Of a stretch of 33,118 bases of DNA, positions 574 to 27,886 are shown piece by piece (the first letter of the stretch is position 1; each line of letters starts with the position of its first letter). Below the pieces are notes generated by a model, which was not told the DNA's origin, ran no database searches, and saw nothing but the letters and a program-made list of their open reading frames with translations. A program made the position numbers and the translations under genes. The stretch is from Oscillospiraceae bacterium. Its GTDB lineage: Bacteria; Bacillota; Clostridia; Oscillospirales; Oscillospiraceae. The DNA is taken from contig JAFQBN010000027.1 of NCBI GenBank assembly GCA_017416685.1, forward strand, positions 1 to 33,118, given 5' to 3'.

Positions 574-604
574 ACCGCCGCACCTCCTGCAAGTTTATAC
601 TCCA

Positions 605-633
605 AGGATAACACGGCCCGCTCCCGGTTTCAA
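605..633 (-). promoter_or_regulatory. Promoter for the rluA-family gene
   Basis: Read on the minus strand, TTGAAA (633-628) is followed after 17 bases by TATCCT (610-605). The expected transcript start lies about 25 bases before the GTG start codon, leaving room for the AGGAGG site. The -35 box directly abuts the -35 box of the hemW promoter. Confidence 0.6.
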
Positions 634-662
634 TTGCATTTTCCCCGCTTTTTCGATATAAT
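634..662 (+). promoter_or_regulatory. Promoter for hemW
   Basis: TTGCAT (634-639), a 17-base spacer, and a perfect TATAAT (657-662) lie about 30 bases before the hemW start codon. This is a sigma-A-type promoter. The ribosome site AAGGAAG follows about seven bases before the ATG at 694. Confidence 0.75.
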
Positions 663-693
663 TGCGTTATAAACCCGCAAAGGAAGTGTCCCC

Positions 694-1896: not shown

Positions 1897-1900
1897 CGAA

Positions 1901-1940
1901 ACATCCCCGGCCAAAGGCGGTTGGCCGGGGATGTTTTATT
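1901..1940. terminator. Bidirectional terminator between hemW and the phage block
   Basis: A perfect 14-bp stem (1901-1914 with 1921-1934) has a six-base loop and is followed on the plus strand by a T-rich tail. On the minus strand the same stem follows the last phage gene and has a short TTT tail. It can therefore end both converging transcripts. Confidence 0.85.
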
Positions 1941-2499
1941 ATTCTACCATCTTCTCCAAATCATCCCAGCGCAGCTGCTGCAATTCCCGCCAGGTCATGT
2001 TCCGTTCCTCCATCTGCCTCCATGTCTGATACCAGAACATGTACCGAACCAGCAAATGGGCCGGCAGAATCTCTTCCACCAAGACCCGAATGCGTTCAAA
2101 CTCCTCCGGAATGCCCGCCACATCGGGAAACCGCACCTCCACGGTGTTGAACTGCTGTGATTCCCTCACCCGGGCGTTCACCCCACAGCCCGCCAGCGTA
2201 TGGTTCATCGCCTCACAGGTAAAACTGTCCCCGCCAATACGGGTCAGTGCCGCCAACGCCTGTGCCATCTGCTCCGGCTGTCGGGCCGCAGGCCTTCTGG
2301 CGAATAACCGGGCCACCTGGTCCAGGCCCTCTTCCCGGGCCGTCACCAGATTCATCTCCCGTTGTACCCGCTCCAGTTCTTTCTCCAGCCGGTCCATGGC
2401 TTCACCCACGCATTCCAGCTCCGCCCCCAGACAGGATTGGTCCAGCCTGTAAACACCCAAGGGCTGCAGCAGTGCCTTCATGTCCTGTGCATAGCTCAT
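1939..2499 (-). CDS. DUF2313 phage baseplate protein (XkdU/YmfQ-like)
   Basis: This 186-residue protein matches the DUF2313 pattern that follows baseplate J in Mu- and PBSX-type clusters: an N-terminal helical part (Glu/Arg-rich helix near residues 35-60) and a C-terminal half ending in a run of Trp and Arg residues. Family members cap the baseplate wedge next to J. The ATG overlaps the stop of the J gene by four bases (ATGA), so translation is probably coupled. It is the last gene of the block. No tail-fibre gene follows, and the stop codon lies next to the hemW terminator. Confidence 0.75.
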   Translation of the reverse strand: MSYAQDMKALLQPLGVYRLDQSCLGAELECVGEAMDRLEKELERVQREMNLVTAREEGLDQVARLFARRPAARQPEQMAQALAALTRIGGDSFTCEAMNHTLAGCGVNARVRESQQFNTVEVRFPDVAGIPEEFERIRVLVEEILPAHLLVRYMFWYQTWRQMEERNMTWRELQQLRWDDLEKMVE

Positions 2500-3542
2500 G
2501 ACATTTCCTCCACACTCAGCCCCCTGAGGACCGGCAGCTGTCCGCGCTCCACCGCCACATCCTGCTCCGGCAAAACCAGCGCGTAATTTTCAACGCCGTC
2601 AACGGCGTAAATCAGATTGCCCAGCTTGGCCCGCAGCACGTGTTCTCCCAGCAACCCACCGGAAAACCATTCGCGTACCGCCTGCTTTACCTGCTCAGAG
2701 ACCTTTTCAAACTCCTGTGCGGTAACACGGACCGTCACGTCCACAGGCACAGTCTCCGGCCCCATCACCGCCACATCCACCGCAATTTCGCGGTTCTCCT
2801 CCATTTTCCGTCCAATTTCCGTCAAAAGCGCCTGCTCCGGCACACCGCTGCGCGATGTTACCACCACGTCCACGGTGCCAACGCCGCGCCGTTTCGGAAT
2901 CGCTACCGCCGCCGCAACGTCCTCAAAGCTTTCTGCCATCTGCTCGTAATAGGCACAGTTTGCTCCGTTGGACAGACGTGCAAAGCTGTTCAGGATCCGA
3001 ATTCGCAGCTGCTCGTCACTCTCCCGGTCCGCCCCCTGCGACATCGCCGCAGGATTACTGCACCCCGTGATCCCCACCGGAGTCACCGCCAGCACATTCA
3101 CACTTCCCGCACTCACGTTGCCCGCGCTGCCGGCCTGCAGCGCCTGTACCGGAATATCCACGTATGTTTCCCCCGCCGGCAGTACCCCGTCCTGCTGCGT
3201 TTCAAATCGCACAAGCCCCTGTGTCATACACACCGTTCCTGCGGGAATATTTCTGTCGCTGTCATTGGCGGGATCGCCGTAAAAACGCACCGTCCCCCGG
3301 GCATATTCCGCCCCCTTGCGCTCCATAGCCCGTAATTGGGCGTGATAGTCCAGGTACTCTCCCGCAGCCGTCTGAGGGAAGCACTGTCTGTTCACCCAGT
3401 CCGCCTGCGCGTACAGCGCATACAGCTGTGCCGCCACAGCATACAGCCGGGCGGACAGATCCGCCCCCTGGGCAACCTCCATCCCGGTCCGCGCGGTAAA
3501 ATCCGCCAGCATCTGTGTATAAAGCTCCTCAATCGTCTTCAT
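2496..3542 (-). CDS. Baseplate J-like protein (XkdT-like wedge)
   Basis: The 348-residue protein has the baseplate J family layout. Its N-terminal segment (TIEELYTQML, residues 3-12) is followed by a jelly-roll-like region with the AGSAGNVSAG turn motif near residues 137-146. The middle segment with ESDEQLRIRIL near residue 174 is typical of the family. J-family proteins form the baseplate wedges that trigger sheath contraction. The start overlaps the upstream gp25-like gene by 14 bases. Confidence 0.88.
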   Translation of the reverse strand: MKTIEELYTQMLADFTARTGMEVAQGADLSARLYAVAAQLYALYAQADWVNRQCFPQTAAGEYLDYHAQLRAMERKGAEYARGTVRFYGDPANDSDRNIPAGTVCMTQGLVRFETQQDGVLPAGETYVDIPVQALQAGSAGNVSAGSVNVLAVTPVGITGCSNPAAMSQGADRESDEQLRIRILNSFARLSNGANCAYYEQMAESFEDVAAAVAIPKRRGVGTVDVVVTSRSGVPEQALLTEIGRKMEENREIAVDVAVMGPETVPVDVTVRVTAQEFEKVSEQVKQAVREWFSGGLLGEHVLRAKLGNLIYAVDGVENYALVLPEQDVAVERGQLPVLRGLSVEEMS

Positions 3543-3897
3543 CTGTCACCTCTCCAACCGGTACCGAAACCGTTGCATCATGTCCCTGCAGCTCCAAACG
3601 CACATCCACCTGCGCCCGGCCCTTGCTCTCGGTGTAGACCACTTCTTTCACCGTAACCTCCTCGCCTTCCAGCGCCTGAGCCACATACTGCGCACACAGG
3701 CTTCGGCGGGCGCCGGGTTTCTCTCTGCACAGGGTGTGCAGCTTGCTGCCCAGCTCCGGCAGAAACGGAAACGCTCCCCTGCGTGCCGTCAGTTTGAACA
3801 GCACCCGCTGCAGAAGCGCCTGCTCCCCGTGTACCAGTTCAAAGCCACCCGCGCCGTTGGGAATCAGATCCCCATCCTTCATCTGCCACTCTGTCAT
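3529..3897 (-). CDS. gp25/W-like baseplate wedge protein (DUF2634, XkdS-like)
   Basis: This 122-residue protein has the gp25/DUF2634 arrangement: a strand-rich N-terminus, then ALLQRVLFKLTARRGAFPF (about residues 27-45), in which the Arg-Gly-Phe turn is the usual signature, followed by the LGSKL element. The C-terminal half is a strand-rich domain. Proteins of this type initiate sheath assembly on the baseplate. The ATG follows the upstream stop codon without a gap, and baseplate J follows as in other contractile tails. Confidence 0.8.
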   Translation of the reverse strand: MTEWQMKDGDLIPNGAGGFELVHGEQALLQRVLFKLTARRGAFPFLPELGSKLHTLCREKPGARRSLCAQYVAQALEGEEVTVKEVVYTESKGRAQVDVRLELQGHDATVSVPVGEVTDEDD

Positions 3898-4308
3898 TTA
3901 TGTCCCCTCCTGTTGGGCCAGCGCCTGCTGCACCGCCGCCTCGATCATTGCCTCCAGCGGAATGCCGTTGACCAGCACCGCGCCGTCCAGCCGTATGTGT
4001 CCGTTCTCATCCAGCTTAACGGAACACTCCGGCCCAAACAGTTCCACTTCACCGGGTTTCAGACTGTTTTCTTCCGCCTCCTGCTGTGCCACGATACAGG
4101 CCGCCTCCGCATCCGCTCCGGTTTTGATCACCAGCACCTGCTGCCCGCTCTGCGGTTTCCAGCGGTATCCGCCCGGAGTGGCCACCGGCAGCTGCTGCTG
4201 ATATCCGTCCGCATATACGCCTGTCCTCTCACCCTGAGCTGTCACTATGCCCACCCGGGCATCATGCTCCTGCCTGCCGGCATATCTGCCCTGCTGCGAG
4301 ATCCACAT
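3898..4308 (-). CDS. gpV-like baseplate spike or XkdR-position protein
   Basis: The likely start is the ATG at 4308, six bases after GAGGTG. A GTG at 4317 is possible and would add three residues. In the 136-residue protein, residues about 15-70 look like the OB-fold domain of gpV/gp5 spikes (strands around VGIVTAQG and QQVLVIKTG). A short strand-rich tail follows (CSVKLDENGHIRLDGAVLVN), which resembles the small beta-helix of a spike tip. It stands where PBSX has xkdR (DUF2577). Role inferred: central spike below the hub. It is much smaller than typical gpV. Confidence 0.6.
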   Translation of the reverse strand: MWISQQGRYAGRQEHDARVGIVTAQGERTGVYADGYQQQLPVATPGGYRWKPQSGQQVLVIKTGADAEAACIVAQQEAEENSLKPGEVELFGPECSVKLDENGHIRLDGAVLVNGIPLEAMIEAAVQQALAQQEGT

Positions 4309-4318
4309 TTCACTCACC

Positions 4319-5272
4319 TCACAGTATCACGTCCGGGGGCAGCAGTTCCAGTCTGGTCCTGTATCCGCCCCCGTCCATACTTACCACAGCCCGCGCCACC
4401 CGCCATTGCCCATCAACAGCCGGCTCACCCCGGTCCACCTGTATCAGCTCTCCGGGCCACGCCGCAAAGGAAACGGGCAGTTCCATTTCCAGCTCCAGCT
4501 GCCGCTGTCTGGATTTCTCCAGCTGATAATTTCCCTGATAGCGCATGGCCTGATATTTGCTCTTCTCCGGCATTGTGAACATTCTGCGGCTGCATCCGCC
4601 GCTGTCCTGAAACTCCCGGTTAGCTATTTTTTCTACTTTGGCGGACTTTCCTCTGTCCCGCACCCAGACCTCGCTGAGCACCCCGTAACGGCGGTATTTT
4701 GTCACAAGTGCCGTCACCGGAGTGTGCCGGTCGATCTTCCGAACCGCACCGTCATCCCAGCCGGCCAAAATCAGCCGTCCCTCCCGGTCAAACCGCGGTG
4801 TCACGCCGCCGTAAAAACGTGCAAACTGGTACAGCACCGACCACTCGCTGCTGCCCGCCGAAACGGAGAATCCCCGTACCGCGGGCAGCGGCTCCTGCTG
4901 CGCCACCTCAATGCCATAGGGCAGTACGTGGTCACGCAGAATATCCTCCGCCTCTGCCAGCGCGTACTGCGCACTCTGGGCCTCGTTATCCAGCAGCAGG
5001 GCCGCAAGCCCCCGCCCGCTGACCTCCAGTCTGTCGCCCGCGCCGTCCCGGGTGACCACACACTCGTCCACCACGCCTGCAAACACGGTCTCATCACCCT
5101 CCCGAGCCTCAAACCGGACCGCATCTGCAAGGGTCCTTTCCTGCCCCGCTTTCCAAAGACACACCACCCGAAAGCTGTCGCAGGGCGTGGCACAGCCGTA
5201 GTCCAGTTCCCACTCCAGCATGGCGGGCAGCAGCCATCGCGTTCCGTCAGCTGTCAGCAGCCACCCTTTCAT
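4319..5272 (-). CDS. Baseplate hub protein (XkdQ / gpD-like)
   Basis: The start is the ATG at 5272, which overlaps the LysM gene stop by four bases. A longer open frame upstream lies inside that gene in another frame and is not real. The 317-residue protein has an N-terminal strand-rich domain, a central part with the LLDNEA and YQFARFYGG elements, and a C-terminal barrel-like segment, as in XkdQ and late-control gpD hubs. Such proteins form the trimeric hub connecting tube and spike. Position between the LysM protein and the spike agrees. Confidence 0.75.
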   Translation of the reverse strand: MKGWLLTADGTRWLLPAMLEWELDYGCATPCDSFRVVCLWKAGQERTLADAVRFEAREGDETVFAGVVDECVVTRDGAGDRLEVSGRGLAALLLDNEAQSAQYALAEAEDILRDHVLPYGIEVAQQEPLPAVRGFSVSAGSSEWSVLYQFARFYGGVTPRFDREGRLILAGWDDGAVRKIDRHTPVTALVTKYRRYGVLSEVWVRDRGKSAKVEKIANREFQDSGGCSRRMFTMPEKSKYQAMRYQGNYQLEKSRQRQLELEMELPVSFAAWPGELIQVDRGEPAVDGQWRVARAVVSMDGGGYRTRLELLPPDVIL

Positions 5273-5829
5273 TTGACCACCACTTCCTGCCCCACCCGGA
5301 TCAGGTTGGGATTTTTGATGTCGGGGTTGCGCTTGAGCAGCTGTTCCATCGTCACCCCGTAGCGCTTGGCAATGGCCCATAGTGTGTCTCCTTTTACCAC
5401 CTTGTGGATCACCCTGTCCACAGATTCCGTCTGCCCGCTTTCCCGCTTCTCTTCCAGTTTCAGCTTTCCGTCGTAAACGTCCAGTTCCTCCCAAAAGGTA
5501 AAGCTGTAGCTGACATAATCCGGTCTTGGCTCCTGCTTCAGTGTCAGTTCCACAAAATAGGCATTGGCCGCCTGCCACAGGGGATGGATCAGCGGTCCCG
5601 CACCCTCCTTGTAGAACACGTTGGCCAGCGCGCCAAACTGAGCATAGGCATCCTTGCCCACAAACTCACCCTCGCCGCGCATGACCCGTCGGGTCCTTCC
5701 CAGATCCTGCAGATGGTACAGCCCGAACGGCACCTTGTCCACCGCCATCTGCCGCTCGTAGTCAATGGTGTACACCTTGGGATTATGGGGCCAAACATAA
5801 TCCTTATATCTCATCGGGCTCAAATCCAT
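5269..5829 (-). CDS. LysM-domain tail/baseplate protein (XkdP/gp53-like)
   Basis: The 186-residue protein has an N-terminal domain with the FGLYHLQDLGRTRRVMRGEG segment (about residues 35-54), seen in XkdP-like proteins. It ends in one LysM domain (about residues 142-185) with the usual GDTLWAIAKRYG and NP..IKNPN..RVGQ features. In contractile phages this protein sits at the tube-baseplate junction and its LysM may touch peptidoglycan. A GAGGTG site precedes the ATG. In PBSX it directly follows the tape-measure gene, but here it follows a 150-residue unknown gene. Confidence 0.82.
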   Translation of the reverse strand: MDLSPMRYKDYVWPHNPKVYTIDYERQMAVDKVPFGLYHLQDLGRTRRVMRGEGEFVGKDAYAQFGALANVFYKEGAGPLIHPLWQAANAYFVELTLKQEPRPDYVSYSFTFWEELDVYDGKLKLEEKRESGQTESVDRVIHKVVKGDTLWAIAKRYGVTMEQLLKRNPDIKNPNLIRVGQEVVVK

Positions 5830-5849
5830 ATTTTCACCTCGTTATCCTG

Positions 5850-6302
5850 TTAAAACAGCCCCAGCGGGCCATCATACCGCCGCGCATCCCGCTCGAATAC
5901 CGCATCCAGCATACCCGCAAGCTCCCGCCGTACCCCCGGCACCGCCGCGGCCGATCTGCGCATATCCTGTCCGCCAGCCGCCTGTGCCACCTGCGCGTAT
6001 TCCCAACTCCGTTTCCGCGTCTCCTGCTGCACCCTCCCCCGGGCCACCGCCCGTTCCAGTGCCGCCAGCCGTGTTTCCGGATCCGCTGTCCGCTTTCGTG
6101 CAGTCGTTTCCTCCGACCGGGAGCGCGCATCCCGCTCCTGTACGTCGCTTCGTTCCGCTCCGATCTTTTTGCTGTCCGGCTGCCGCGAGCCACCCTCATC
6201 GGTAGCCCCCCGGTATCCCGTCCTCATCCGTCTCCACGCAAAGGGCTCGTTTTCATTCTCTTCCTGCTGCTCGTCCAGAAGCAGATCCAAATAGTCGGTC
6301 AT
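5850..6302 (-). CDS. Unrecognised 150-residue phage protein in the tape-measure position
   Basis: I do not recognise this family. It starts with ATG overlapping the stop of the frameshifted tail chaperone by four bases and ends 20 bases before the LysM gene, exactly where the tape measure normally lies. The N-terminus is acidic and leucine-rich (YLDLLLDEQQEENENE, residues 4-19), followed by an Arg/Trp-rich stretch. The second half (about residues 75-150) looks helical and highly charged. There is no signal peptide or membrane segment. Tape measures are usually several hundred residues or more. This protein could be a very short tape measure, a relic of one, or an unrelated assembly factor. 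Confidence 0.55.
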   Translation of the reverse strand: MTDYLDLLLDEQQEENENEPFAWRRMRTGYRGATDEGGSRQPDSKKIGAERSDVQERDARSRSEETTARKRTADPETRLAALERAVARGRVQQETRKRSWEYAQVAQAAGGQDMRRSAAAVPGVRRELAGMLDAVFERDARRYDGPLGLF

Positions 6303-6927
6303 TTCTGCCTCCCTCGCTTCATCCGTTCAAACCGGGCCGAGTCAAACCCCTCATTGACCGACCCTTCCCATGCCGCCAGCGGTGCGCCGCACCCAACGCA
6401 TCGCTCCTCCACGGCCTTGTCCCGGCAGGCAGGACACAAGCCCCCCAGTTCTTCCTCATCATCCAGCATCAGATTGAGTGCGCACCACAGAAAGTCCCGG
6501 TCCTTCATGGTTCGGACCCGTTCCTCCGTGGGCAGGGCTGAAAAAGTTCGCAGCACGCGCCAGTACAGCCGCTCCTCCCGGGCGTGCTCCAGGCTTTTTT
6601 TAGCCGGTCCGCCTCCTCGTCATCCACCTTCGGTCCGGGATTGACCGTCCGGTTAAACCGGGCCCACCGCCCCGCCAATCGCTCGATCTCCTCCACCGTC
6701 AGCTCTGCCAGCACCTGCGTCCCGTCCCGGAACTGCGGCGCTTCACCGCACAGCACCGCTCTGGCCAGCAGGCATGCGTTGGCACACAGCGCCATCTCCC
6801 GTCCGTCCCCGGCCAGCTGGCGGGCCTCGGCCCGGGCCTGCAGCACCTCAAAGGCGCTCAGCAGCCGCAGCTGCCGTCCGTCCTCCAGCTCCAGCCGCTC
6901 CGGCCCGTTCAAAAGCCCCCACTGCAT
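6299..6927 (-). CDS. Tail assembly chaperone, long form made by -1 frameshift (G-GT type)
   Basis: Ribosomes that slip back one base at 6595-6601 leave the short-form frame after 111 codons. They continue through 98 codons to the stop at 6299, giving about 209 residues. The second frame reads sensibly straight from the slip point (SLEHAREERLYWRVL onward) and has no start codon with a ribosome site of its own. It contains two CxxC pairs in CPACRDKAVEERCVGC, a likely zinc-binding knuckle. Tailed phages commonly make such G/GT pairs between tube and tape measure, where they bind the tape measure and recruit tube subunits. The stop overlaps the next ATG. Confidence 0.8.
6505..6927 (-). CDS. Tail assembly chaperone, short form (XkdN-like)
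   Basis: The unshifted product is about 140 residues from the ATG at 6927; a GTG at 6933 is an alternative start. The protein is mostly helical, with LTVEEIERLAGRWARFNRTVNP near residues 72-93 and an acidic DDEEADRLKK end before the slip. It lies directly after the tail tube gene, the normal place of tail chaperones. The roughly 29 residues after the slip site are low-quality sequence rich in Cys, Pro and Arg. This fits the idea that the conserved sequence continues in the -1 frame. Confidence 0.8.
   Translation of the reverse strand: MQWGLLNGPERLELEDGRQLRLLSAFEVLQARAEARQLAGDGREMALCANACLLARAVLCGEAPQFRDGTQVLAELTVEEIERLAGRWARFNRTVNPGPKVDDEEADRLKKAWSTPGRSGCTGACCELFQPCPRRNGSEP
6552..6601 (-). 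promoter_or_regulatory. Programmed -1 ribosomal frameshift signal
   Basis: The slippery heptamer A AAA AAA (6601-6595, minus strand) is in the right phase relative to the chaperone frame (codons CTA AAA AAA GCC). After a six-base spacer, AGCACGC (6588-6582) can pair with GCGTGCT (6558-6552). This 7-bp GC-rich stem is extendable by two pairs across a bulge. Heptamer, spacer and downstream stem match the classic arrangement for -1 frameshifting. Confidence 0.8.
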
Positions 6928-6929
6928 GC

Positions 6930-7319
6930 TCACAGCTCCATCTCAATGCGCTTGGAAGCAACCACACTGACCTCTTCCAGCACCATCTCGCCAAGGCCGG
7001 CCTTCTCGCTGATGCTGCTCCACTGACAGCCGGAGTAAATGATCCGTCTGTCCGGTTTGCAGATGACCAGCGAAAAACCCTCCAGCCTGTAAAAGTCGAT
7101 GCCGTCGCGAATGGCCTCGTCGGTAGCATACAGCCGGGTCAGCTTCAGCTCATGCTTCACCGGTCCTGCCACCGTGGCCACAGGCTGCTTTTCACCGAAG
7201 GCCTCCACCGTACTGCTGGTCTTGGACGCCTTGGCACTGTAGCTCTGCACCACAGCCACCTTTTTGCCGTCCACCTCCAGATAAATGTCGCTGCTGGTAG
7301 GAAAACCAGTTACCGTCAT
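6930..7319 (-). CDS. Tail tube (core) protein, XkdM-like
   Basis: The chosen start is ATG 7319, six bases after AGGAGG, giving 129 residues. The protein is strand-rich with one central helix, beginning MTVTGFPTSSDIYLEVDGKK. It matches XkdM-type tube proteins of contractile phages in length and in its place after the sheath gene. Tube proteins stack as hexameric rings inside the sheath. The EAFGEKQPVATV region near residue 40 resembles the family's loop segment. No defects are seen. Confidence 0.82.
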   Translation of the reverse strand: MTVTGFPTSSDIYLEVDGKKVAVVQSYSAKASKTSSTVEAFGEKQPVATVAGPVKHELKLTRLYATDEAIRDGIDFYRLEGFSLVICKPDRRIIYSGCQWSSISEKAGLGEMVLEEVSVVASKRIEMEL

Positions 7320-7330
7320 GTTCTCCCTCC

Positions 7331-8383
7331 TCAAACTGTAATGTGTGCGCTGAGCCAGATCTGGTTAATACCGTGAGTCACCGTAAAGGCGAAGTCCACA
7401 AGGCAGCGAGTAGGCTCCTCGCTGTCCTGTACCACACGCACCCCGTCGTAAGCGGTGATGATCTCCCGATCCAGCTTGTTCTCCAGCTCCAGCACCACCT
7501 GCGAGCGAATAGCCCCCCGGCTCTGCGCCGTATTCTTCGCTCTGCGAAAGCGGCTCTTCAGGGCATTTCGGATGGTGGGGATCACATCATCCACCACCAG
7601 AACAGACGACAGATCCCGCCATGTGCTGTCCAAAGCACCCGCGGTCGTGGTACGGGTGGTCACGCCGCGCACCACACTTATCTCGCCGGCCACACTCTCC
7701 GCCGCAGTCACACCGCCGCGGATCAGCACGTCCAGTTCACTGTCGCTGTAAGCCGCACTCAGCCCGTGCAGGCCCATCAGCTGCGCACCGCCGAGGGGTA
7801 CCGCCGGGTCAGCAAGACCCGCCACCGCACCTGCCATCGCCGCCGCCAGTTCCACACCGGACAGCACGTTGCCCGCGTCATCCACACAGCCCGGTGCCGC
7901 CAGCACCACACGCTCACTGTTCAGCGCTGCGGCCCGCGCCACCAGCGCATCCACAGCTTCGTCAGCACCGCCGGCAACCACGGCGATGCGCTCTCTCTGC
8001 GCCGCGGAGGCGGTCTGCACACTGTCCCGCAGCGCCTGCTGCACCGCAACATCGGTGCTGTCACATACCACCACCGCCAGATTTTCCTCCGCCTCCATGG
8101 CGGCAAAGGCCGCGGCGTAGTCCTCACCCTCCACGGGGAATACCGTCACCTGCGCCGCACCGTTCTGCAGCAGCAAACGCACCAGCGCCGTGGCATTGCC
8201 CGCCTGCTCCGGTCCAAAGGCCGCCACCGCCTGTTCATAACGGGTGATGGTCCACATCTTCTTTTCCGGATCGGTCATCTTCACCGACAGACCTGCATAC
8301 TTTCTGCCCGCGGAGCCGCTCACCGCCGCGGACGCCTCGTAATCGGTGTATACGCCCGGCCTTTCATGCGCCGTGATACTCAT
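7331..8383 (-). CDS. Contractile tail sheath protein (XkdK-like)
   Basis: The ATG at 8383 follows AGGAGA by nine bases and overlaps the preceding stop (ATGA), giving 350 residues. The N-terminus carries ERPGVYTDYE, close to the sheath signature GVY. The C-terminal third has VVDDVIPTIRNALKSRF and the conserved end with DFAFTVTHGINQIWL. Sheath proteins polymerise around the tube and contract on infection. The length is shorter than PBSX XkdK but normal for compact clostridial sheaths. An alternative TTG at 8392 lacks a ribosome site. Confidence 0.88.
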   Translation of the reverse strand: MSITAHERPGVYTDYEASAAVSGSAGRKYAGLSVKMTDPEKKMWTITRYEQAVAAFGPEQAGNATALVRLLLQNGAAQVTVFPVEGEDYAAAFAAMEAEENLAVVVCDSTDVAVQQALRDSVQTASAAQRERIAVVAGGADEAVDALVARAAALNSERVVLAAPGCVDDAGNVLSGVELAAAMAGAVAGLADPAVPLGGAQLMGLHGLSAAYSDSELDVLIRGGVTAAESVAGEISVVRGVTTRTTTAGALDSTWRDLSSVLVVDDVIPTIRNALKSRFRRAKNTAQSRGAIRSQVVLELENKLDREIITAYDGVRVVQDSEEPTRCLVDFAFTVTHGINQIWLSAHITV

Positions 8384-8877
8384 CCGTTCCAATCTCCTCT
8401 CAAGGTAAAATCAAGGATGTCCGCCGCCTCGTAGCCGCTTGCCCACAGCCAGCCATCACAGCTCACCGCGCAGCCCAGCCGCAGCAGACCTTCCTTCTGG
8501 TCAAATTTGATCTCTTCACAGGTCAGCTTGCGTACCGTCAATCCCTCGGGCCGCTTGTCGTGAAGCACCGCCACAAGCTTTTCAAGCAGTCCCCTGCACG
8601 CCCCGGCACCCGCCCCGGCGGGAGCCAGAATATCCAATCCGAACTCCAGCTTCGCCTTCTGTCCGTACCACTCCACGACCTCCCCGGTCGCCTCGTCCAG
8701 CCGCTGACCCAGATAATTCTGCATCCCCACCGGCCCGCAGTCCATTTTGGTCAGGGACACCAGAACCTGCGCCCCCTCCAGCCTCTGTCTGCAGCTCCCG
8801 GGCCAGCAGGCTGTCGCCGGGATCTCATGATCCCGCAGGAACTGCGCCATTCTCTCCTGCAAATGCTCCAGTTCCAT
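8380..8877 (-). CDS. Neck/tail-terminator-like phage protein
   Basis: The start at ATG 8877 is coupled to the upstream stop (TGATG). The 165-residue product has an N-terminal helix (MELEHLQERMAQFLRDHEI) and an alpha/beta remainder. Its place immediately before the sheath gene is that of PBSX xkdJ-like or tail-terminator/tail-completion proteins. I do not recognise a named domain, so the function is inferred from position only. Confidence 0.6.
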   Translation of the reverse strand: MELEHLQERMAQFLRDHEIPATACWPGSCRQRLEGAQVLVSLTKMDCGPVGMQNYLGQRLDEATGEVVEWYGQKAKLEFGLDILAPAGAGAGACRGLLEKLVAVLHDKRPEGLTVRKLTCEEIKFDQKEGLLRLGCAVSCDGWLWASGYEAADILDFTLRGDWNG

Positions 8878-9212
8878 CACAGCACCTCCTGCTCTCTGCG
8901 GTCGAATACCGCCCACCAGTGGGTCAGTTCCCCACCTGCATAGACCGGCTGCGCCGTGCGCATGCGGTAACGTATCCCATCCGCCTCCAGCCGGCAGCTT
9001 CCGCCGTCCAGCCGTATCTGCGCCGGACCAATGTAAGTAAATTTATCCTGCACCACCCAACCCAGCGCAGTGGGGGCGGCTTTCGCCGTCCCCCGCTCCC
9101 GCATGGGCTGAAAGCAGGCCCGGATGCTGATGCCGTCCGGGTGCTGTGGGGTGTAAAGTGTCATCTCGCGGCCCAGCCGCTCCAGTTCTCTTCCGATCTT
9201 CTCCTGCATCAT
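8877..9212 (-). CDS. Head-tail joining protein (XkdI/minor capsid-like)
   Basis: Translation most likely starts at the ATG at 9212, overlapping the upstream stop by one base (TGATG). A longer in-frame extension to 9422 lies inside the neighbouring gene and reads as non-protein. The 111-residue protein has an N-terminal helix with MMQEKIGRELERLGREM and a strand-rich C-terminal domain, as in head-closure proteins such as SPP1 gp16. The assignment rests mainly on size and position between connector and neck genes. Confidence 0.55.
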   Translation of the reverse strand: MMQEKIGRELERLGREMTLYTPQHPDGISIRACFQPMRERGTAKAAPTALGWVVQDKFTYIGPAQIRLDGGSCRLEADGIRYRMRTAQPVYAGGELTHWWAVFDRREQEVL

Positions 9213-9568
9213 CAACCATCCACTCCGCAGAACATAAAACTCGTGTCCCGCAGCCAGCTGCTCATGATCTGCTCTGCCTGTCTGCGCAGCGCGCGGGCCC
9301 TCTGCCCGGCATCGCCGCTGTACACGCTGACATCCCCGGCAGTAAAGCGCTCCGCCTGTCCCACAGACCGGCTCACTTCCAATCCGGCAAGCGCCAGCCA
9401 CGCGCCAGCCAGTACAAAGCACTGTCCGCAGTCCTCCGGCTTCACGCCCTTGCGCAGCCGCTCCTGCAGCTGGCGACAGGCCGCTTCACACAGCCCGTCC
9501 AGCACCCCGAATTCCTGCTCCTCCACCCGGCCCAGAGCCCGGGCAAGCTCCGCCATCTGCCGGACCAT
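9212..9568 (-). CDS. Head-tail connector/adaptor protein (XkdH-like)
   Basis: The 118-residue, mostly helical protein follows the capsid gene with a TAATG start-stop overlap. All-helical adaptors such as HK97 gp6 or SPP1 gp15 occupy this place and bind beneath the portal. It is rich in Arg, Leu and Ala and has several Cys residues. No specific motif was recognised, so the call depends on size, helical content and gene order. Confidence 0.55.
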   Translation of the reverse strand: MVRQMAELARALGRVEEQEFGVLDGLCEAACRQLQERLRKGVKPEDCGQCFVLAGAWLALAGLEVSRSVGQAERFTAGDVSVYSGDAGQRARALRRQAEQIMSSWLRDTSFMFCGVDG

Positions 9569-10581
9569 TACACACTCAGCACCTTGGCCGCGTCGCCAAA
9601 CAGCTTGGCAAAGCCGCTGATGCTGGTAATGGCAGCGCGCTCCAGCTGACGGTCAATGAGCTTATCGTACTCGATCATCACGTCGCTGCCCTTCACCATC
9701 TCCAGCGCATAATTGCGGTCCAGACCAATAATGGTGTTGGCGGGCAGAGCGCTGGTACGCAGCAAAGTGGCACCCAGAGGGGTAGTCAGCTTGCCGGTAC
9801 CCTGGAAATTCAGACCGGTTGCGGGGTTCTGGAACTCAGGCAGCTTGAGCATCTTGACCATCATGTCGTTGCTCACCAGCAGGGTGTTCATCTCATAGGG
9901 GTCAAATTTGGCCCAGAAATCCACCAGATCCTCATAGGTCAGCACGCCCTCACCGGCCGCCTGATACACCTGAGCAGGATTGTTGTTGCCGTCACCGTTC
10001 ATCAGCACGTCGATAGCATCCTCCAGATGCATGCGGTTGATGTGCGCACCGATCTGACGCAGGGTAACGGAAAACAGATCCAGCTTCTGGTGACGGATCG
10101 CCTCGTAGGAAGCCACCAGCATACGGCCACGCTTATGCAGCTGCACCAGATTGTCCTGCACCTTCACGGTGGTGCTGGGGATGGCAGCGCCCTCCTCCAC
10201 GCGGCGCAGCGCCTTGGCGTCGTCGCCGGTCTGGGCGGTAATGGAGCGGTAGTCCATACCGTCAAACTTAGTCACCGCGGCAGTAATAGCGGGCAGCATG
10301 TTCTGCTCCTCCATGCCCTGACGGACGGAGCGGGCGATGTACTCGGGGAACAGCACAGCGGAGTCGGCACTGCGGAAGAACTTCTCCACCACGTCGCTGC
10401 CCGCGCCCTTCACCTTGATGTCAAAACGCTTGAGCTGGCGCTGGAAGGCATCCAGACCCTCCATGGCCGTTCCCTTGTACTGCTGATCGGGGTCCATGCT
10501 CTCCAGCACCTGAGTAAAGGTGCGGCCCGCCTCATGGTACATGCCCTTCTCCAGCTTCAGATTATCAAACTGATAAGCCAT
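9568..10581 (-). CDS. Major capsid protein (HK97 fold, XkdG-like)
   Basis: The 337-residue protein has the layout of HK97-fold capsid proteins of PBSX type: a helical N-arm, then FPEYIARSVRQGM near residue 78, a central spine helix and a beta-rich C-terminal domain with SVLFP/LGATLL-like elements. Its length is typical. A strong site (GGGAGGAAAT) precedes the ATG. It is placed between a small decoration-like protein and the connectors, as expected. There is no long N-terminal delta domain, although a protease is encoded upstream. Scaffold function may instead reside in the C-terminal part of the protease. Confidence 0.85.
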   Translation of the reverse strand: MAYQFDNLKLEKGMYHEAGRTFTQVLESMDPDQQYKGTAMEGLDAFQRQLKRFDIKVKGAGSDVVEKFFRSADSAVLFPEYIARSVRQGMEEQNMLPAITAAVTKFDGMDYRSITAQTGDDAKALRRVEEGAAIPSTTVKVQDNLVQLHKRGRMLVASYEAIRHQKLDLFSVTLRQIGAHINRMHLEDAIDVLMNGDGNNNPAQVYQAAGEGVLTYEDLVDFWAKFDPYEMNTLLVSNDMMVKMLKLPEFQNPATGLNFQGTGKLTTPLGATLLRTSALPANTIIGLDRNYALEMVKGSDVMIEYDKLIDRQLERAAITSISGFAKLFGDAAKVLSV

Positions 10582-10599
10582 TTCTATTTCCTCCCTTTC

Positions 10600-10938
10600 T
10601 TACAGGCAGATAACGGCCTTGCCGTCCTGCTCCACCTGAACCACCAGCGCCTGAACGCCGTCCTCGGCAGCCTTTACGCCGCCCTTGCCGTCAGCGGCCA
10701 GTTTCACACGGCCCAGCTCCACCTCACCGGTGACCTTGACGTGCATAAAACCACCCACCTGCACGGCCACAGCGCCCTTGCGCACCTGACCGGCCACGCC
10801 GCAGAACCCATCGCCCTCAGCGCAGGCACCCACCGTGCCGTTTCCGGTCACCTTGACCACCTGACCGTCCTCCACGCCTTCGTCGGCGTAAAAGGTAGCC
10901 ATCACATTGCCAATGTCGTCAAACGAAATTTTGTTCAT
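10600..10938 (-). CDS. Small capsid decoration/stabilisation-like protein
   Basis: This 112-residue protein is almost entirely strand-like, with many Gly and Val residues and repeated turns (DGQVVKVTGNGTVGA, GGFMHVKVTG). Small beta-rich proteins between protease and capsid genes often decorate or stabilise the head, for example DUF2190- or gpD-like proteins. It has its own AGGAGGA site. The role is inferred from fold type and position. Confidence 0.6.
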   Translation of the reverse strand: MNKISFDDIGNVMATFYADEGVEDGQVVKVTGNGTVGACAEGDGFCGVAGQVRKGAVAVQVGGFMHVKVTGEVELGRVKLAADGKGGVKAAEDGVQALVVQVEQDGKAVICL

Positions 10939-10993
10939 CCTTGCTCCTCCTGAATGATATTTATCCTGAAGCGGTCACCCGCCGGGATACAAA

Positions 10994-11911
10994 TTAAATC
11001 AAAAACGCGCCGTCCACCGGCTTTTCCTGCTGTTTCATGCCGTGGTCCAGCTGGGTCACCAGCGGAAAGCGCTTGGCCGCCTTGTCCGCGTAAACGCGCC
11101 GCAGCTCCAGCAGCTCCTTCTCCCCCAGCTTTTCGGCAATGGCTTCCATCACCTCATGGTCCACGCCCTCACCGGTCAACCCGTTCAGCCGCACCACCTC
11201 ATTGCGCAGGGCAGACAGATAGCGTCTGCCCAACTCCGCCTGCTTCTCCAGCTGCTCCACCTCATGGGCCCAGCCTTCCTGCCCGGCCAGTTCCTTCATT
11301 TCGGTGTAACCCTTGTGCTTGAGTACACCGGCCTTTGGCTGGGCAGGCACCGCCACAAAGGACCACTCAAAGGCGTCCGCCGCACCCTGCAGACTGGTGT
11401 AGCACAGCTTTCCGTCGTAAACCTCGCCCTTTCGGTGGGCGCAGCTGCCCGCCTGCTTACCGCACACGGAGCAAACCGCCCGTTCCACCGCGCAGCCAAC
11501 GCTGACCTCACGCAGAATGCCGCCCTCCAGCTGTGCGATCAGTTCCTCGTTGCCCGCCGTGCGCAGAACATAGGCATATCCCTTCACATAACGGCAGCCG
11601 TCACCTGCCGCCGTCAGCACACCGGGTTCTTCTACCACCTCGGTGCGGTACAATCGGGCCGTCTGCCCCGCCGCCGTCCACTGGTGGTCAAAAATACCCG
11701 TCTTGCCCACAAACAACTTGGCCAACTCCTCCAGCGTACCGCACTCAAACCGTTCGCCGTCCCGATCGATCTCGTTGTCACACAGCCGCACCGCAAAGGT
11801 GTACACCTCCTGCGCCGCCAGCTGCTTCCGACTGAACTGATTGATCAGTTCCAGCTCTGCATCGTCAGGCTGCGCACTCAGCGCACAGCTCGCCTGCTTT
11901 TTGATGTTCAT
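10994..11911 (-). CDS. Prohead protease with C-terminal scaffold-like region
   Basis: The first 195 of 305 residues resemble U35/HK97-type prohead proteases. A likely catalytic His76 lies in FDHQW, Ser137 in LREVSVGC and Glu182 in EWSFVAVPAQP, in the usual spacing. An inserted Cys/His cluster (Cys147, Cys150, Cys157, His159) looks like a zinc knuckle. Residues about 200-290 are helical and charged and may act as a cleavable scaffold. The start overlaps the portal stop (ATGA). AGGAGG is only one base from the ATG, so initiation probably depends on coupling to portal translation. Confidence 0.75.
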   Translation of the reverse strand: MNIKKQASCALSAQPDDAELELINQFSRKQLAAQEVYTFAVRLCDNEIDRDGERFECGTLEELAKLFVGKTGIFDHQWTAAGQTARLYRTEVVEEPGVLTAAGDGCRYVKGYAYVLRTAGNEELIAQLEGGILREVSVGCAVERAVCSVCGKQAGSCAHRKGEVYDGKLCYTSLQGAADAFEWSFVAVPAQPKAGVLKHKGYTEMKELAGQEGWAHEVEQLEKQAELGRRYLSALRNEVVRLNGLTGEGVDHEVMEAIAEKLGEKELLELRRVYADKAAKRFPLVTQLDHGMKQQEKPVDGAFLI

Positions 11912-13053
11912 TCCTCCTGCACGTCCCCTTTCAAATTTTCGGCCTGACGGCGGTACAGCTCCGCCCGGGCCTGCTCCACCTCATCCTGCAGCTTGATCTG
12001 GCTCCAATGGACCTTTACACTGCCGCCAAAGCCATTCAGCCGCAGCCAGATCTCACAAATGCGCTCCACCACCGGCTCCAGACTTCTTCGGATAGCCCCG
12101 ATCTCGCTGGTCATCAGGTCAGCCTGCTGACTGCTCATACGCTCGGTGCTGGACCAGGACAGGCCCAGCATAAAGGGCGGAATGCCGGTTCGTGCGATCA
12201 GCTGCTCCAAAATCTGCCGTACCGGCACCTCGCTGTCCAGCACCTGATTGTCCGCGCCGATGACCCGGATGTCCACATCGCCCATAGCCACAAAATCCCG
12301 CACGCTGCCCTGACTGGTGGCCTGCATGGCGCGGCTCCATTCCCGGGCCACCTGCTCACATCGCTCCCGGGCATAGAGTTCGTCCCCCTCGCCGTTCTTG
12401 CACACCACGGCAAAGCGCACGTTGCCCACCCGCTCCCAGTTCAGGCCGATGGCCTGATAAATTTTCATCAAAATCTCGGTCATGAAGGGCATGGACCGCA
12501 GCAGAGATACGCCGTAGGGATTGCCCACCTCCGGTTGGAACGGCGTGAACAACAGCAGTTCCTGACAGGGAAACGGCTCTGGCTCGCCCACACCTGCGCT
12601 GCACAGTTCAAACTCCAGCGGCGACTGCCCCTGCCGAATGACCACCGCCGCCGGGTCGCACCATAAAAGGGCCGCCACGTCCCGCCCCTGACGATCGGGT
12701 ACGATCTCGCCCACCGCTCTGCCGCAGGTCAGCATACTGTCCAGATACCCGTCCAGAAAAGCCTGCAAACCGCGTTGTCCCCGGCCGGCCGGCACGGTTT
12801 TCAAGAACCGTGCCAGCCCCTCCTGCGCTTTTCTGTCCTCCGTTTCCACCTCCACGCCGCCACACAGTCGGATCAGCTTCAAAATGGCGGCATCCACAAT
12901 AGGTACCGCCTCCCGGATGGCCCGGTACAGCCTGCTGTCCGCCTCCTGCAGCGGCACATACCGCTCCAGCGCTCCAAAGGGATGCTTAGGGTTGTCTCTC
13001 ACCTGCACCGCAGTCCCCTGTACCGGGGTCTGCTTTTTCTGAAATAACTTCAT
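11908..13053 (-). CDS. Portal protein
   Basis: ATG 13053 is preferred because AAGGAG lies seven bases before it; a GTG at 13071 would add six residues. The 381-residue protein has portal-family features. These are a mixed alpha/beta N-terminal half, the GNPYGVSLLRSM segment near residue 196, and ARTGIPPFMLGLSW near residue 285 followed by a long amphipathic C-terminal helix rich in Glu, Gln and Arg. Portals form the twelve-subunit ring through which DNA is packed. It lies directly after the large terminase, as in other tailed phages. Confidence 0.85.
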   Translation of the reverse strand: MKLFQKKQTPVQGTAVQVRDNPKHPFGALERYVPLQEADSRLYRAIREAVPIVDAAILKLIRLCGGVEVETEDRKAQEGLARFLKTVPAGRGQRGLQAFLDGYLDSMLTCGRAVGEIVPDRQGRDVAALLWCDPAAVVIRQGQSPLEFELCSAGVGEPEPFPCQELLLFTPFQPEVGNPYGVSLLRSMPFMTEILMKIYQAIGLNWERVGNVRFAVVCKNGEGDELYARERCEQVAREWSRAMQATSQGSVRDFVAMGDVDIRVIGADNQVLDSEVPVRQILEQLIARTGIPPFMLGLSWSSTERMSSQQADLMTSEIGAIRRSLEPVVERICEIWLRLNGFGGSVKVHWSQIKLQDEVEQARAELYRRQAENLKGDVQEE

Positions 13054-13067
13054 CCGTTCGCTCCTTT

Positions 13068-14366
13068 TCACATTCTGCTCCGCCGGCTCACGCTTCCGGC
13101 AAATACAGGGGGTTGTCCCCCCTGCCCCTCAACGATGGTCGCCGCGAAATACCGGATGTCGTCCATGGCGTGGTCGTCCTGCTTGCGTACCCGGTCTCCC
13201 GTCCCGTCCTCTTCCCATCGGTAAAGGCCAAACTCCCTTATGGCGTCGTCACATCCCCGGCAAATGATCAGCTTTTCGCACCGCAACAGCTCCGCCGTGA
13301 CCCGCACACCGCTCAGCACGTCATTTTTCGCCTTCATCACCCGCCAGCCGTCCCGCCGCAGCACCTCTATGAAGCTGGCCGCCGACGGGTCCACCACCAC
13401 CCGCCAGATGTCCCGTCCTCCGGCCAGTGCCGCCAGCTTCTGTGCATACTCGCCGTCCGTCATCTGCCGCCCGGCCAGCTTCGAATCGTAGTAATACTCC
13501 TTTACGCGATACCACACCCCGTCCCTCAGTCCCCACAGGCCAAAAGACGCCGGGTTGATCGTGCCGTAGTCGCAGGAGATACACCATCGTTCCATCTCCC
13601 CCTCCGGCGGCTCGGGACAGTTCTCCTCTTTGAAAAAGTCGTAAACCAGACCCTCCGCCGCCACCCATTCGCCCAGTACGAACCTGCGGTAAAAGGTCCC
13701 CTTGAACATCTGCTCGTACCGCCTGCGCACCTTGTCGGACAGGGATGGGTTGTCCTTCATCGTAAAGTGCAGATACAGGGCGTTTCTCTCCTGCGCCCTG
13801 CAGATCCACTCCTTGTAAAACCAGTGCTGCGGACCCTCCGGATTGCAGGAAAACCACAGCTTCGCTCCCTCCACCGAGCAGCGGGCGCAGGCCTGCTCCA
13901 CAAAGGAGCGGGGCATCAGCACCACCTCGTCCATCAGCACCCCGGCCAGAGTCAGGCCCTGTATCAGGTCGGCGCTGCTCTCGTCCTTGCCGCCAAACAG
14001 GTAAAAGATGTTCTGTCTTTCCCCACAGGTGACACTTATTTGGTTTCGGCTGAACAGCTGCTCACACTCGAACCCCCGCTGGCGCAGGATGGGCAGCAGT
14101 TCCCGCAGCAGATTGCGCCGCACCGACTCGATGGTCTTTCCGCACAGGGCAAAGGCCTGCCCGTCAAATCGGGCCATGGCCCAGTTGAAAAAAGACAGCC
14201 CCATACAAACGGTCTTGCCGCTTCGCACCGCGCCATCGCAAATCACCGCATCCCAGCCGCGCCGGCTTCTCCACCAGCTCATCACCCGCTTCTGTTTGGG
14301 GGAAAGCTCGCTGAATTTTTCATTGGGACTCTGTCCGCAATTTGGTCTCGTCGCGCCCTTTCCCAT
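13068..14366 (-). CDS. Terminase large subunit (XtmB-like packaging ATPase/nuclease)
   Basis: The 432-residue protein has all the landmarks of TerL. Walker A is GAVRSGKT (residues 45-52), Walker B is LMDEV (Asp146-Glu147), and the coupling segment WFSCNPEGP starts at residue 171. The RNase H-like nuclease has probable metal ligands Asp266 (SCDYG), Asp326 (VVDPS) and Asp402 (AMDDIRYF). Nothing looks inactivated. It begins the block, with ribosome site GAGGTG. No small terminase gene precedes it, which matters for which DNA it could package. I see no convincing promoter in the 149 bases upstream. Confidence 0.9.
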   Translation of the reverse strand: MGKGATRPNCGQSPNEKFSELSPKQKRVMSWWRSRRGWDAVICDGAVRSGKTVCMGLSFFNWAMARFDGQAFALCGKTIESVRRNLLRELLPILRQRGFECEQLFSRNQISVTCGERQNIFYLFGGKDESSADLIQGLTLAGVLMDEVVLMPRSFVEQACARCSVEGAKLWFSCNPEGPQHWFYKEWICRAQERNALYLHFTMKDNPSLSDKVRRRYEQMFKGTFYRRFVLGEWVAAEGLVYDFFKEENCPEPPEGEMERWCISCDYGTINPASFGLWGLRDGVWYRVKEYYYDSKLAGRQMTDGEYAQKLAALAGGRDIWRVVVDPSAASFIEVLRRDGWRVMKAKNDVLSGVRVTAELLRCEKLIICRGCDDAIREFGLYRWEEDGTGDRVRKQDDHAMDDIRYFAATIVEGQGGQPPVFAGSVSRRSRM

Positions 14367-14515
14367 AAATTCACCTCACACAAGTGGTAAAATTCCGGCA
14401 AAAGTTGTACGTCGGAGTCCCCATAAGCAAAAACTTTTTGAAAAAATTTTTCCTCGCATACTCTCCCAGTCTCCTCCACATCCTTTTGGCAGAATAAACA
14501 TTTGGAGGAATCTGC

Positions 14516-15640: not shown

Positions 15641-15649
15641 ACCACAGTC

Positions 15650-15685
15650 CCGGGGGTCGGAGAACGTCCATTCTCCGACCCCCGG
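15650..15685 (+). terminator. Strong hairpin after the carboxypeptidase gene
   Basis: A perfect 15-bp GC-rich stem (15650-15664 with 15671-15685) with a six-base loop begins ten bases after the stop codon. There is no clear T-tract after it, so it may work as a weak terminator or as a stabiliser of the mRNA 3' end. The rest of the 223-base gap holds the glg promoter and a short palindrome at 15789-15803. Confidence 0.55.
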
Positions 15686-15748
15686 TCCAAACCCACCTCA
15701 AATTTCGTAAAAAGCCTAATATTATTACCCCTCGCGCCTGTTCTCCCC

Positions 15749-15777
15749 TTGACGAACCCTTTACATCGTTGTATAAT
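15749..15777 (+). promoter_or_regulatory. Promoter of the glycogen operon
   Basis: TTGACG (15749-15754), a 17-base spacer and TATAAT (15772-15777) form a near-consensus sigma-A promoter. The expected transcript start gives a leader of about 80 bases before glgB. No riboswitch-like structure was recognised in that leader. Confidence 0.85.
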
Positions 15778-15863
15778 TTATATAAATTAGGAAAGTTTTT
15801 CCTCGGTTCAAATTGTATGTTATAACCACATTTTGTTATCTCCCCCGGAATTCAGGTGATTTT

Positions 15864-17753: not shown

Positions 17754-17763
17754 GGTGACCGAA

Positions 17764-18968
<1,205 letters not shown>

Positions 18969-27786: not shown

Positions 27787-27821
27787 GTTATTTCCTCCTC
27801 GGTTTGTAACTTGCTGCCTTA

Positions 27822-27830
27822 ATTCTAGCA
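27822..27830 (-). promoter_or_regulatory. Possible extended -10 promoter before the SLH protein gene
   Basis: TGCTAGAAT (27830-27822, minus strand) fits an extended -10 box, about 36 bases before the start codon, but no -35 match is seen. The 100-base gap could equally be a leader within the operon transcript. Confidence 0.3.
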
Positions 27831-27886
27831 TAACCGGCCATGGCAGGCCCAGGCCAAACTATGGACAAACAAGCAAATGTTTCCTC

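Follow-up and report, generated by a model that had tools for sequence, protein, structure and literature searches.

Why would a gut bacterium keep, in intact reading frames, the packaging, head and tail genes of a phage whose means of moving, replicating and lysing its host can no longer be recognised? The question is raised by contig JAFQBN010000027.1 of an Oscillospiraceae bacterium (assembly GCA_017416685.1), hereafter the window: 33,118 nucleotides, one whole contig of a 1.86-Mb genome. Positions 1939-14366 hold 19 minus-strand open reading frames (ORFs), hereafter the block, flanked by hemW and dacF, both on the plus strand. The block has been domesticated and is inherited vertically, as gene order, trees and selection show. 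We are moderately confident that this PBSX-type particle operon works like a gene transfer agent (GTA). Judged from its genes, packaging of the GTA kind is the best-supported function, and it fits the features of the terminase, the retention of heads over tails among reduced relatives and a published report of packaging in the same family.

The block and its genomic setting

The initial annotation of the window had placed the block correctly at these coordinates, all on the minus strand, and had listed seventeen genes, where we count 19 ORFs; the many start-stop overlaps that it described are present, at 13 of the 18 ORF junctions with the starts chosen here. Products were named from Pfam and PHROG matches, except for the head-tail connectors, tube and chaperones, whose assignment comes from their place in the operon and from PHROGs without a known function. 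They form a set of structural and packaging genes of tailed-phage origin, as in a GTA, in the order packaging, head, contractile tail and baseplate, which is that of PBSX of Bacillus subtilis; the likeness is one of the order of functions, not of PBSX sequence. Also as annotated, no gene for integration, repression or other regulation, replication or lysis was recognised by Pfam or PHROG among the block ORFs of this whole contig, nor was a fibre gene, and the other window ORFs and the flanks of the genus loci listed are likewise without recognised genes for integration, replication or self-propagation.

Within the genus the capsid gene is present as a single copy in each of 37 genomes and the gene for the terminase large subunit (TerL) in 36, the miss (G034) being a contig that begins within the portal gene. 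With the family sample added, the capsid gene is found in 39 of the 41 distinct same-genus genomes listed; misses were ordered by kinship, so the two same-genus misses (G246 and G397) are taken as complete. In both, the contig stops 0.24-0.51 kb past dacF, just where the block would begin, and they may therefore be assembly or binning losses. Wider sampling found the gene in 144 of 400 family genomes (49/106 genera), in 71 of 394 order genomes (42/168 genera) and in 11 of 391 class genomes, eight of them in the order and three outside it with weaker matches (E 6e-53 to 2e-22). The block is thus nearly specific to the order, almost always single-copy and missing from many lineages. By comparison, a control gene taken from a prophage-like region of the window's genome matched 7 of 60 relatives, its own genome counted. 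The nearest named carriers are the Oscillospiraceae genera Flavonifractor, Pseudoflavonifractor, Flintibacter, Lawsonibacter, Intestinimonas, Oscillibacter and Dysosmobacter, from a search in which at least 583 of 597 candidate stretches held a capsid relative and the best 80 were used.

Gene order and strand are identical in all 27 of the 36 genus loci that have both ends of the block, from terL to xkdU, and each of the 27 retains portal and capsid. The 58 further distinct loci that have both ends agree without exception in order and strand as well (family-set counts refer to 121 distinct loci, 143 minus 22 duplicate contigs). One locus, L296 (G304), has the capsid ahead of the portal; it lacks an xkdU match and so falls outside the 58.

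The two genes that flank the block in the window are:

694..1896, plus strand: hemW-like host gene, named by eye, found next to the block in close relatives of the window only
14516..15640, plus strand: dacF-like D-Ala-D-Ala carboxypeptidase, a host gene outside the particle (Pfam Peptidase_S11, 7.1e-73)

The conserved neighbour is dacF, and the earlier choice of hemW as the anchor of the locus was mistaken. Divergent from terL and no more than 1.5 kb away, dacF is found in all 29 genus loci containing both genes; among the 32 genus loci with terL, two (L062, L084) start at that gene and one (L068) has other genes there, so that dacF adjoins terL in 29 of the 30 loci with room for it. The genes glgB and glgC follow beyond dacF wherever the contig extends that far. 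The xkdU side varies within the genus: hemW is confined to the window, L051-L053 (L053 and L091 are one contig) and L090, with different host genes elsewhere. A complete prophage at the site in related strains had been named as evidence that would speak against domestication; among the genus loci listed there is none, and host genes come after xkdU.

In a viral sequence collection, 335 stretches encode a capsid relative; among the best 80 examined (L170-L249), many contigs are 12-14 kb long, about the size of the block, which is why the host operon seems to have been widely counted as a provirus. Two 'Bacteriophage sp.' records from human faecal samples, L341 (MT835508.1) and L342 (MT835769.1), look by eye like a piece of bacterial chromosome (a ribosomal-protein operon) with a head module and like the block plus metabolic-looking flanking genes, respectively. 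They could reflect contamination, or else host DNA that was recovered with particle fractions.

Vertical inheritance and purifying selection

Distances between genomes in their block genes follow those in rpoB: across 30-36 genomes the Mantel r of 11 genes is 0.62-0.86, with none of 499 permutations as high, and within the genus alone it is 0.73-0.92. Trees were built from the genomes with rpoB and enough block genes, 36 of the 46 family genomes searched for rpoB and 53 at the scale of the order. Block and rpoB trees have 23 of 33 splits in common for the family (label-shuffle mean 0.24, maximum 3 in 500 shuffles) and 29 of 50 for the order (mean 0.18, maximum 2 in 300 shuffles), and the window's family forms one clade in the order-scale tree.

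Selection on the block is purifying. Between the window and its nearest relative, L051, the ratio of nonsynonymous to synonymous substitution rates (dN/dS) is 0.037-0.264 for the 18 block genes other than the tape-measure-position ORF; four host genes give 0.034-0.125. In five further pairs, making six in total, all values obtained are below 1, the highest being 0.52 (orf9212, L059/L060); the orf8380 value for L052/L053 was lost to saturation. Across distinct loci, a stop interrupts the middle 80% of the match in 20 of 1838 gene copies; xkdN accounts for 17 of them, with one stop at 36% along the match and the other 16 at 79-93%. Ratios near 1 with widespread frame breaks, which the initial annotation had named as grounds for abandoning its proposal, are thus not seen; its preference for selection over simple decay is borne out by these ratios and the intact frames, and domestication is strongly supported by shared order, the absence of a prophage at the site, dN/dS and the rarity of stops. 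The block shows the vertical inheritance and purifying selection looked for in a GTA, and not the frame breaks, relaxed selection and sporadic presence of a decaying prophage.

These results bear on two explanations in which the block would be a recent or mobile arrival. We reject a recently inserted, decaying remnant of an ordinary defective prophage as very improbable: genes for integration, regulation, replication and lysis are indeed not recognised, and terS, the gene for the small terminase subunit (TerS), has been lost in the window's lineage, but the one site in nearly all genus loci, the congruent family and order trees, the purifying selection and the intact frames contradict such a remnant for the family as a whole, as does the narrow reach of the prophage-like control gene. 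Still more improbable is a satellite or chromosomal island that packages itself with the aid of a helper phage. Its compactness and its own terminase would suit one, yet no integrase or repressor is recognised in the window, the trees are congruent with rpoB, and a mobile island was rejected on the lack of a recognised integrase together with the one site in nearly all genus members.

Packaging and head genes

The operon opens, on the dacF side, with the following features:

14367..14515, no strand: short intergenic region toward dacF, the place of terS in other genus members; no terS here
13068..14366, minus strand: terminase large subunit, XtmB-like (Pfam Terminase_6N 1.3e-10, Terminase_3 2.3e-7; PHROG terminase large subunit)
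11908..13071, minus strand: portal, XkdE-like (Pfam Phage_portal 3.5e-7, below cut-off; PHROG portal 4.5e-161)
10994..11911, minus strand: XkdF-position protein (PHROG_16951 of unknown function, 2.4e-116)
10600..10938, minus strand: small head or virion structural protein (PHROG_4588 virion structural protein, 2.1e-19)
9568..10581, minus strand: major capsid protein, XkdG-like (Pfam Phage_capsid_4 1.8e-15; PHROG major head protein 1.3e-111)
9212..9568, minus strand: head-tail connector position, XkdH-like, by position; no family match
8877..9212, minus strand: neck protein position, XkdI-like, by position; no family match

Residues G45, R48-T52, D146-E147, D266, D326, D398 and D402 of TerL are invariant in 104 of 104 distinct sequences, and we take R48-T52 to be the Walker A motif, D146-E147 the Walker B motif and D266, D326, D398 and D402 the nuclease residues. 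In the XkdF-position protein, H76, S137, C147, C150, C157 and H159 are invariant in 33 sequences; it is a possible head maturation protease. Sequence searches of the PDB returned no match for the capsid profile and only chance-like matches for the TerS profile.

The small subunit is reduced in the genus and lost in the window. Other genus members have a gene of about 100 amino acids, terS, ahead of terL, and a terS profile (A2) finds one strong match in each of five other genus genomes searched and no match at E<=1 anywhere in the window's genome or in G029. The TerL of the window starts with MGKGATRP, resembling the TerS starts MGKASTQP and MGKQSRAP, which suggests that an in-frame deletion fused the start of terS to terL in this lineage. 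In the genus members that retain it, TerS covers the Pfam Terminase_2 model only from position 57 or 61 to 128 of 141 (two members) and so is without the N-terminal part, which in phage TerS is described as the helix-turn-helix (HTH) region (PMC6854486). An HTH profile accordingly found nothing upstream of terL in any of 30 genus loci at E<=0.01. Known GTAs are reported to be without a small terminase carrying a specific DNA-binding domain (PMC11841831); the window and its genus share this feature.

In three Oscillibacter/Dysosmobacter-type loci (L141, L148, L166) a same-strand ORF of ~195-215 amino acids lies ~320-390 bp upstream of terS/terL. Such an ORF occurs at nine loci, duplicates included, and is a candidate accessory gene of the block.

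Loss of tails in other families

Many relatives of the block in other families are reduced, and what they retain is the head. Of 17 such loci (two further loci belong to the window's family, and L087, L089 and L334, cut or with few matches, were left out), four keep sheath and tube; eight have no sheath and keep head genes, xkdP and baseplate J, L335 without an xkdU match; and five have a head module with no recognisable J gene. TerL is found in 16 of the 17. Tube-like remnants persist in L325 (34 bits) and L330 (~60 residues). In L324, L088 and L327 the interval from capsid to xkdP is only ~0.7 kb, too small for a sheath gene.

This pattern bears on the possibility that the particle is a phage-tail-like bacteriocin (tailocin), whose contractile tail kills relatives and whose head is simply carried along. 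In its favour, the window has a full set of conserved sheath, tube and baseplate genes, and PBSX has been described as acting as a tailocin (PMC12946183). A tailocin, however, would be expected to retain its tail genes and lose its head genes, and the 27 complete genus loci all keep theirs; of the 17 other-family loci, eight keep head and baseplate genes without a sheath and five keep the head module without a recognisable J gene. No fibre is present. Capsid and portal, with dN/dS of 0.037 and 0.046 between the window and L051, are also more constrained than sheath and J (0.105 and 0.142), but TerL stands at 0.129 and the tube at 0.069. Given the head genes kept here and the tails lost elsewhere, we reject killing as the main function and regard a tailocin as unlikely. 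The persistence of heads where tails vanish is the best argument that packaging, and not killing by the tail, is the selected function.

Some of these loci have familiar neighbours. In L336 (G674), genes resembling glgB-glgC-glgD-glgA (by eye) directly follow the head module at ~12350-18105 in block orientation; glg genes are also block neighbours in the window's genus, by ancestral synteny or by coincidence. A dacF-like gene lies at 16246-17496 (block orientation) of L330 (G606), ~320 bp after xkdU and on the same strand as the block, whereas dacF is divergent from terL in the window's genus. Both L324 and L325 have an hflX-like gene (by eye) after the block.

Tail, chaperone and baseplate genes

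The second half of the operon reads:

8380..8877, minus strand: tail terminator position, XkdJ-like (PHROG_25177 of unknown function, 2.4e-33)
7331..8392, minus strand: contractile tail sheath, XkdK-like (Pfam Phage_sheath_1 1.3e-10, Phage_sheath_1C 1.1e-9; PHROG tail sheath 1.4e-44)
6930..7334, minus strand: tail tube position, XkdM-like (PHROG_27038 of unknown function, 5.1e-58; PHROG_985 virion structural, 3e-6)
6505..6933, minus strand: tail assembly chaperone in the zero frame, XkdN-like (xkdN), by position and by its -1 frame relation to the next ORF
6595..6601, minus strand: A7 slippery heptamer, probable site of a programmed -1 frameshift, from the sequence run
6299..6556, minus strand: cysteine-rich C-terminal extension of the chaperone (orf85), probably reached by -1 frameshift (weak DZR_2 match, 0.003, below cut-off)
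5850..6302, minus strand: tape-measure-position protein of 150 amino acids with conserved termini MTDYL... and RDARRYDG, by position; no family match
5269..5829, minus strand: hub/LysM protein, XkdP-like (Pfam LysM 3.5e-17, DNA_circ_N 2.4e-6)
4319..5272, minus strand: baseplate hub, XkdQ-like (Pfam Gp44-like_2nd 1.3e-6; PHROG baseplate hub 9.9e-43)
3898..4317, minus strand: baseplate or spike position, XkdR-like (PHROG_25991 of unknown function, 1.3e-22)
3529..3897, minus strand: gp25-like baseplate wedge, XkdS-like (PHROG baseplate protein 4.1e-7, baseplate wedge 1.4e-4)
2496..3542, minus strand: baseplate J, XkdT-like (Pfam Baseplate_J 2.5e-50)
1939..2499, minus strand: Mu gp48-like baseplate protein, XkdU-like, the last block gene (Pfam Phage_Mu_Gp48 5.7e-6, below cut-off; PHROG tail 1.2e-15)

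The block had been described as free of frame breaks, which holds in general and fails at one place, the -1 relation of xkdN and orf85, where the break is probably deliberate. Among 77 distinct loci with matches to both genes, 62 show the -1 relation and 15 have the two in the same frame. Of the 62, 61 have an in-frame A6 within 130 nt before the xkdN stop, which all 15 same-frame loci lack; the window itself has a run of seven A and none of nine. Since the run tracks the frame relation, translation of the chaperone looks selected, and the pair is probably a programmed -1 frameshift. The 15 same-frame loci (e.g. L070, L073-L075 and L078-L080) have lost the A-run, as if fusion had replaced the frameshift in some sublineages.

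The tail would also be short. An ORF of 91-289 amino acids (median 194) occupies the tape-measure position in 96 of the 102 distinct loci where both tube and xkdP are present; the PBSX tape measure has ~1330, and the interval from tube to xkdP never exceeds 1557 bp in distinct loci. Position in the operon points to this short ORF as the tape measure. A C-terminal motif of the RDARRYD type ends 72 of the 96 (136-289 amino acids); the 24 without it include some ORFs probably in the wrong frame, as L281 and L148 appear to be.

Beyond xkdU, some other genera of the family carry a holin (Phage_holin_4_1) and a CBM5/12 protein, and L297 an M15-type peptidase; none of the three was seen after xkdU in the genus loci listed. 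Phage_holin_4_1 is present in 4 of 13 genus genomes searched. The window's genome has a single one, which was rejected as part of the block system because it sits in a separate prophage-like region on another contig. That region (L376, G000:C38:30000-48000) has tail-type genes, the holin and an IS200/IS605-type transposase gene (by eye).

Proposed mode of action

A GTA-like particle could be made as follows. The operon would be transcribed from the dacF-terL side, and the XkdF, capsid, portal and small head proteins would form the head, which TerL, free of a pac-specific small subunit, would fill with host DNA. Ribosomal frameshifting would yield two forms of the tail chaperone, and the very short tape-measure protein would set a short contractile tail of ~20-30 nm, on the rule of 1.5 angstrom of tail per residue. 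The LysM hub and baseplate might then contact a relative's cell wall and bring the DNA in, delivery being the least supported of these steps. For the window's genus, lysis and receptor binding would have to come from genes located elsewhere.

Delivery is where a further explanation parts from this one. The block may encode a vertically inherited particle that packages DNA and does not transfer it, releasing DNA-loaded decoys or appearing as a product of stress lysis. PBSX has been published as a system that packages DNA and does not inject it (PMC7667829, PMC12946183), and in the window's genus the search next to the block turned up no gene for receptor binding. A conserved baseplate, a hub and, where present, a sheath would be needless in such a particle, and some genera encode a CBM5/12 protein beside the baseplate. 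We think it improbable, to the same degree as the tailocin.

Evidence to the contrary

Several observations weigh against a domesticated, vertically inherited GTA. PBSX packages host DNA without transferring it (PMC12946183, PMC7667829). Inheritance is not perfectly congruent: when a single genome represents the genus, the Mantel r drops to 0.36-0.80, a level matched by 0-2 of 499 permutations, and supported rpoB splits are contradicted by 4 of 27 supported block splits in the family trees and by 6 of 32 in the order trees. The capsid gene was not found in 256 of the 400 sampled family genomes, some of these perhaps through assembly gaps, and it is absent from G156 and G183, rated 100% complete and in one or two contigs, so the block is dispensable. 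Flanks differ in other genera, and within the genus L068 (G018, positions 1-5400) is the only full-length locus without dacF at terL, having an ATP-synthase-like gene (by eye) and others there; its block or neighbourhood may have moved, or the contig may be chimeric. The site is therefore not fixed across the family. The window's genus yielded neither a lysis gene nor a fibre, in a search that did not extend to endolysins and fibres in the rest of the genome.

The terminase also gives mixed testimony. The HTH is present upstream of terL in 19 other distinct family loci, mostly of the Oscillibacter/Dysosmobacter type (20 family matches at E<=0.01 among 122 loci including duplicates, equal to 19 distinct ones, plus L087), and in 9 of 18 other-family TerS, which are the HTH profile's own members. 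The other nine of the 18 are without it. Pfam bears out the profile for the nine of the 18 submitted to it: L328, L331, L336, L326 and L341 match the model from position 1-19, L324 and L339 from 64 and L325 from 43, and L329 has no match. A small terminase without a DNA-binding domain is thus not a feature of these 19 loci and nine proteins; we rejected loss of the domain as a universal hallmark of the block and regard the loss as clade-specific. Presence of the HTH in part of the family and in other families makes the domain probably ancestral, with more than one loss. By losing terS entirely, the window's lineage may have begun to decay, since RcGTA requires its own TerS (PMC6854486). One de-tailed locus, L330, has no terL match in the stretch examined.

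Other features of the window

The G+C content of the window is ~60%, and between 31001 and 33000, close to the contig end, it drops from ~0.60 to 0.47-0.51; an AraC-type regulator-like ORF (31461-32243, plus strand, by eye) lies there. A minus-strand ORF of 2020 amino acids at 21769-27831 has a signal-peptide-like start and probably encodes a large secreted protein; the 1771-amino-acid ORF antisense to it is likely spurious.

Comparison with known systems

PBSX shares with the block the succession terminase, portal, XkdF, capsid, sheath, tube, chaperone, tape measure, LysM protein XkdP and XkdQ-U, and a contractile tail. Unlike PBSX, which has a full-length tape measure, fibre, regulator and lysis genes, the block has no fibre (XkdV), regulators or lysis genes and is short at the tape-measure position; it is inherited vertically across an order, and in the window's genus it is without a DNA-binding small terminase.

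RcGTA and CcGTA are, like the block, inherited structural clusters. They have a different phage ancestry and a non-contractile tail, and RcGTA has a short tape-measure gene. Transfer has been shown for both, whereas the block is known here from its genes. The TerS of RcGTA has no DNA-binding domain (PMC6854486), and CcGTA has no known TerS.

A further system is FpGTA of Faecalibacterium, from gut Clostridia of another family, which differs in having two loci in some strains, a form described as podovirus-like and scaffolding, fibre and lysis genes, where the block is one locus with a contractile tail (PMC12946183). The existence of de-tailed and head-only relatives suggests a possible common origin of the two. 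The same 2026 study, of the human gut, calls FpGTA the second Gram-positive GTA-like system after PBSX and reports GTA-like packaging in an Oscillospiraceae member, Onthomonas sp., in 3 of 25 events; among four metagenome-assembled genomes searched, it reports a strong candidate operon in the Faecalibacterium one only (PMC12946183). The Faecalibacterium phage FP01 has a PBSX-family TerL, contractile tail genes and a gut Clostridia host, but it is lytic, has replication and lysis genes and uses other head families (scaffold PF06810, portal PF05133) (PMC13432834). We found no description of the block in the open-access full text searched, a coverage outside which most subscription papers and preprints fall.

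A bolder reading, which we hold tentatively and think somewhat less likely true than false, is that a single PBSX-type phage was domesticated before the families of the order split, was kept as a GTA and was whittled down stepwise. The tape measure would have been shortened, and TerS would first have lost its DNA-binding domain and then disappeared; other lineages would have shed the contractile tail, so that a head and baseplate, or just a head, remained. Under this view FpGTA would be a de-tailed descendant, and the block the missing agent of the GTA-like packaging reported in Oscillospiraceae.

Implications

GTAs are difficult to detect by sequence, and most of those studied in depth come from Alphaproteobacteria. 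If the block is the agent behind the packaging reported in Oscillospiraceae, DNA exchange among common gut commensals has an inherited machine, and the question would be directly testable, since carriers include named isolates (Pseudoflavonifractor capillosus, Flintibacter muris and Oscillibacter valericigenes). The order-wide series is a natural experiment in which parts of a phage a DNA-packaging particle can lose. The viral-collection stretches with a capsid relative suggest that host operons make up many of the contigs catalogued as viral. The block looks more like a bacterial tool for packaging the cell's own DNA than a dead virus.

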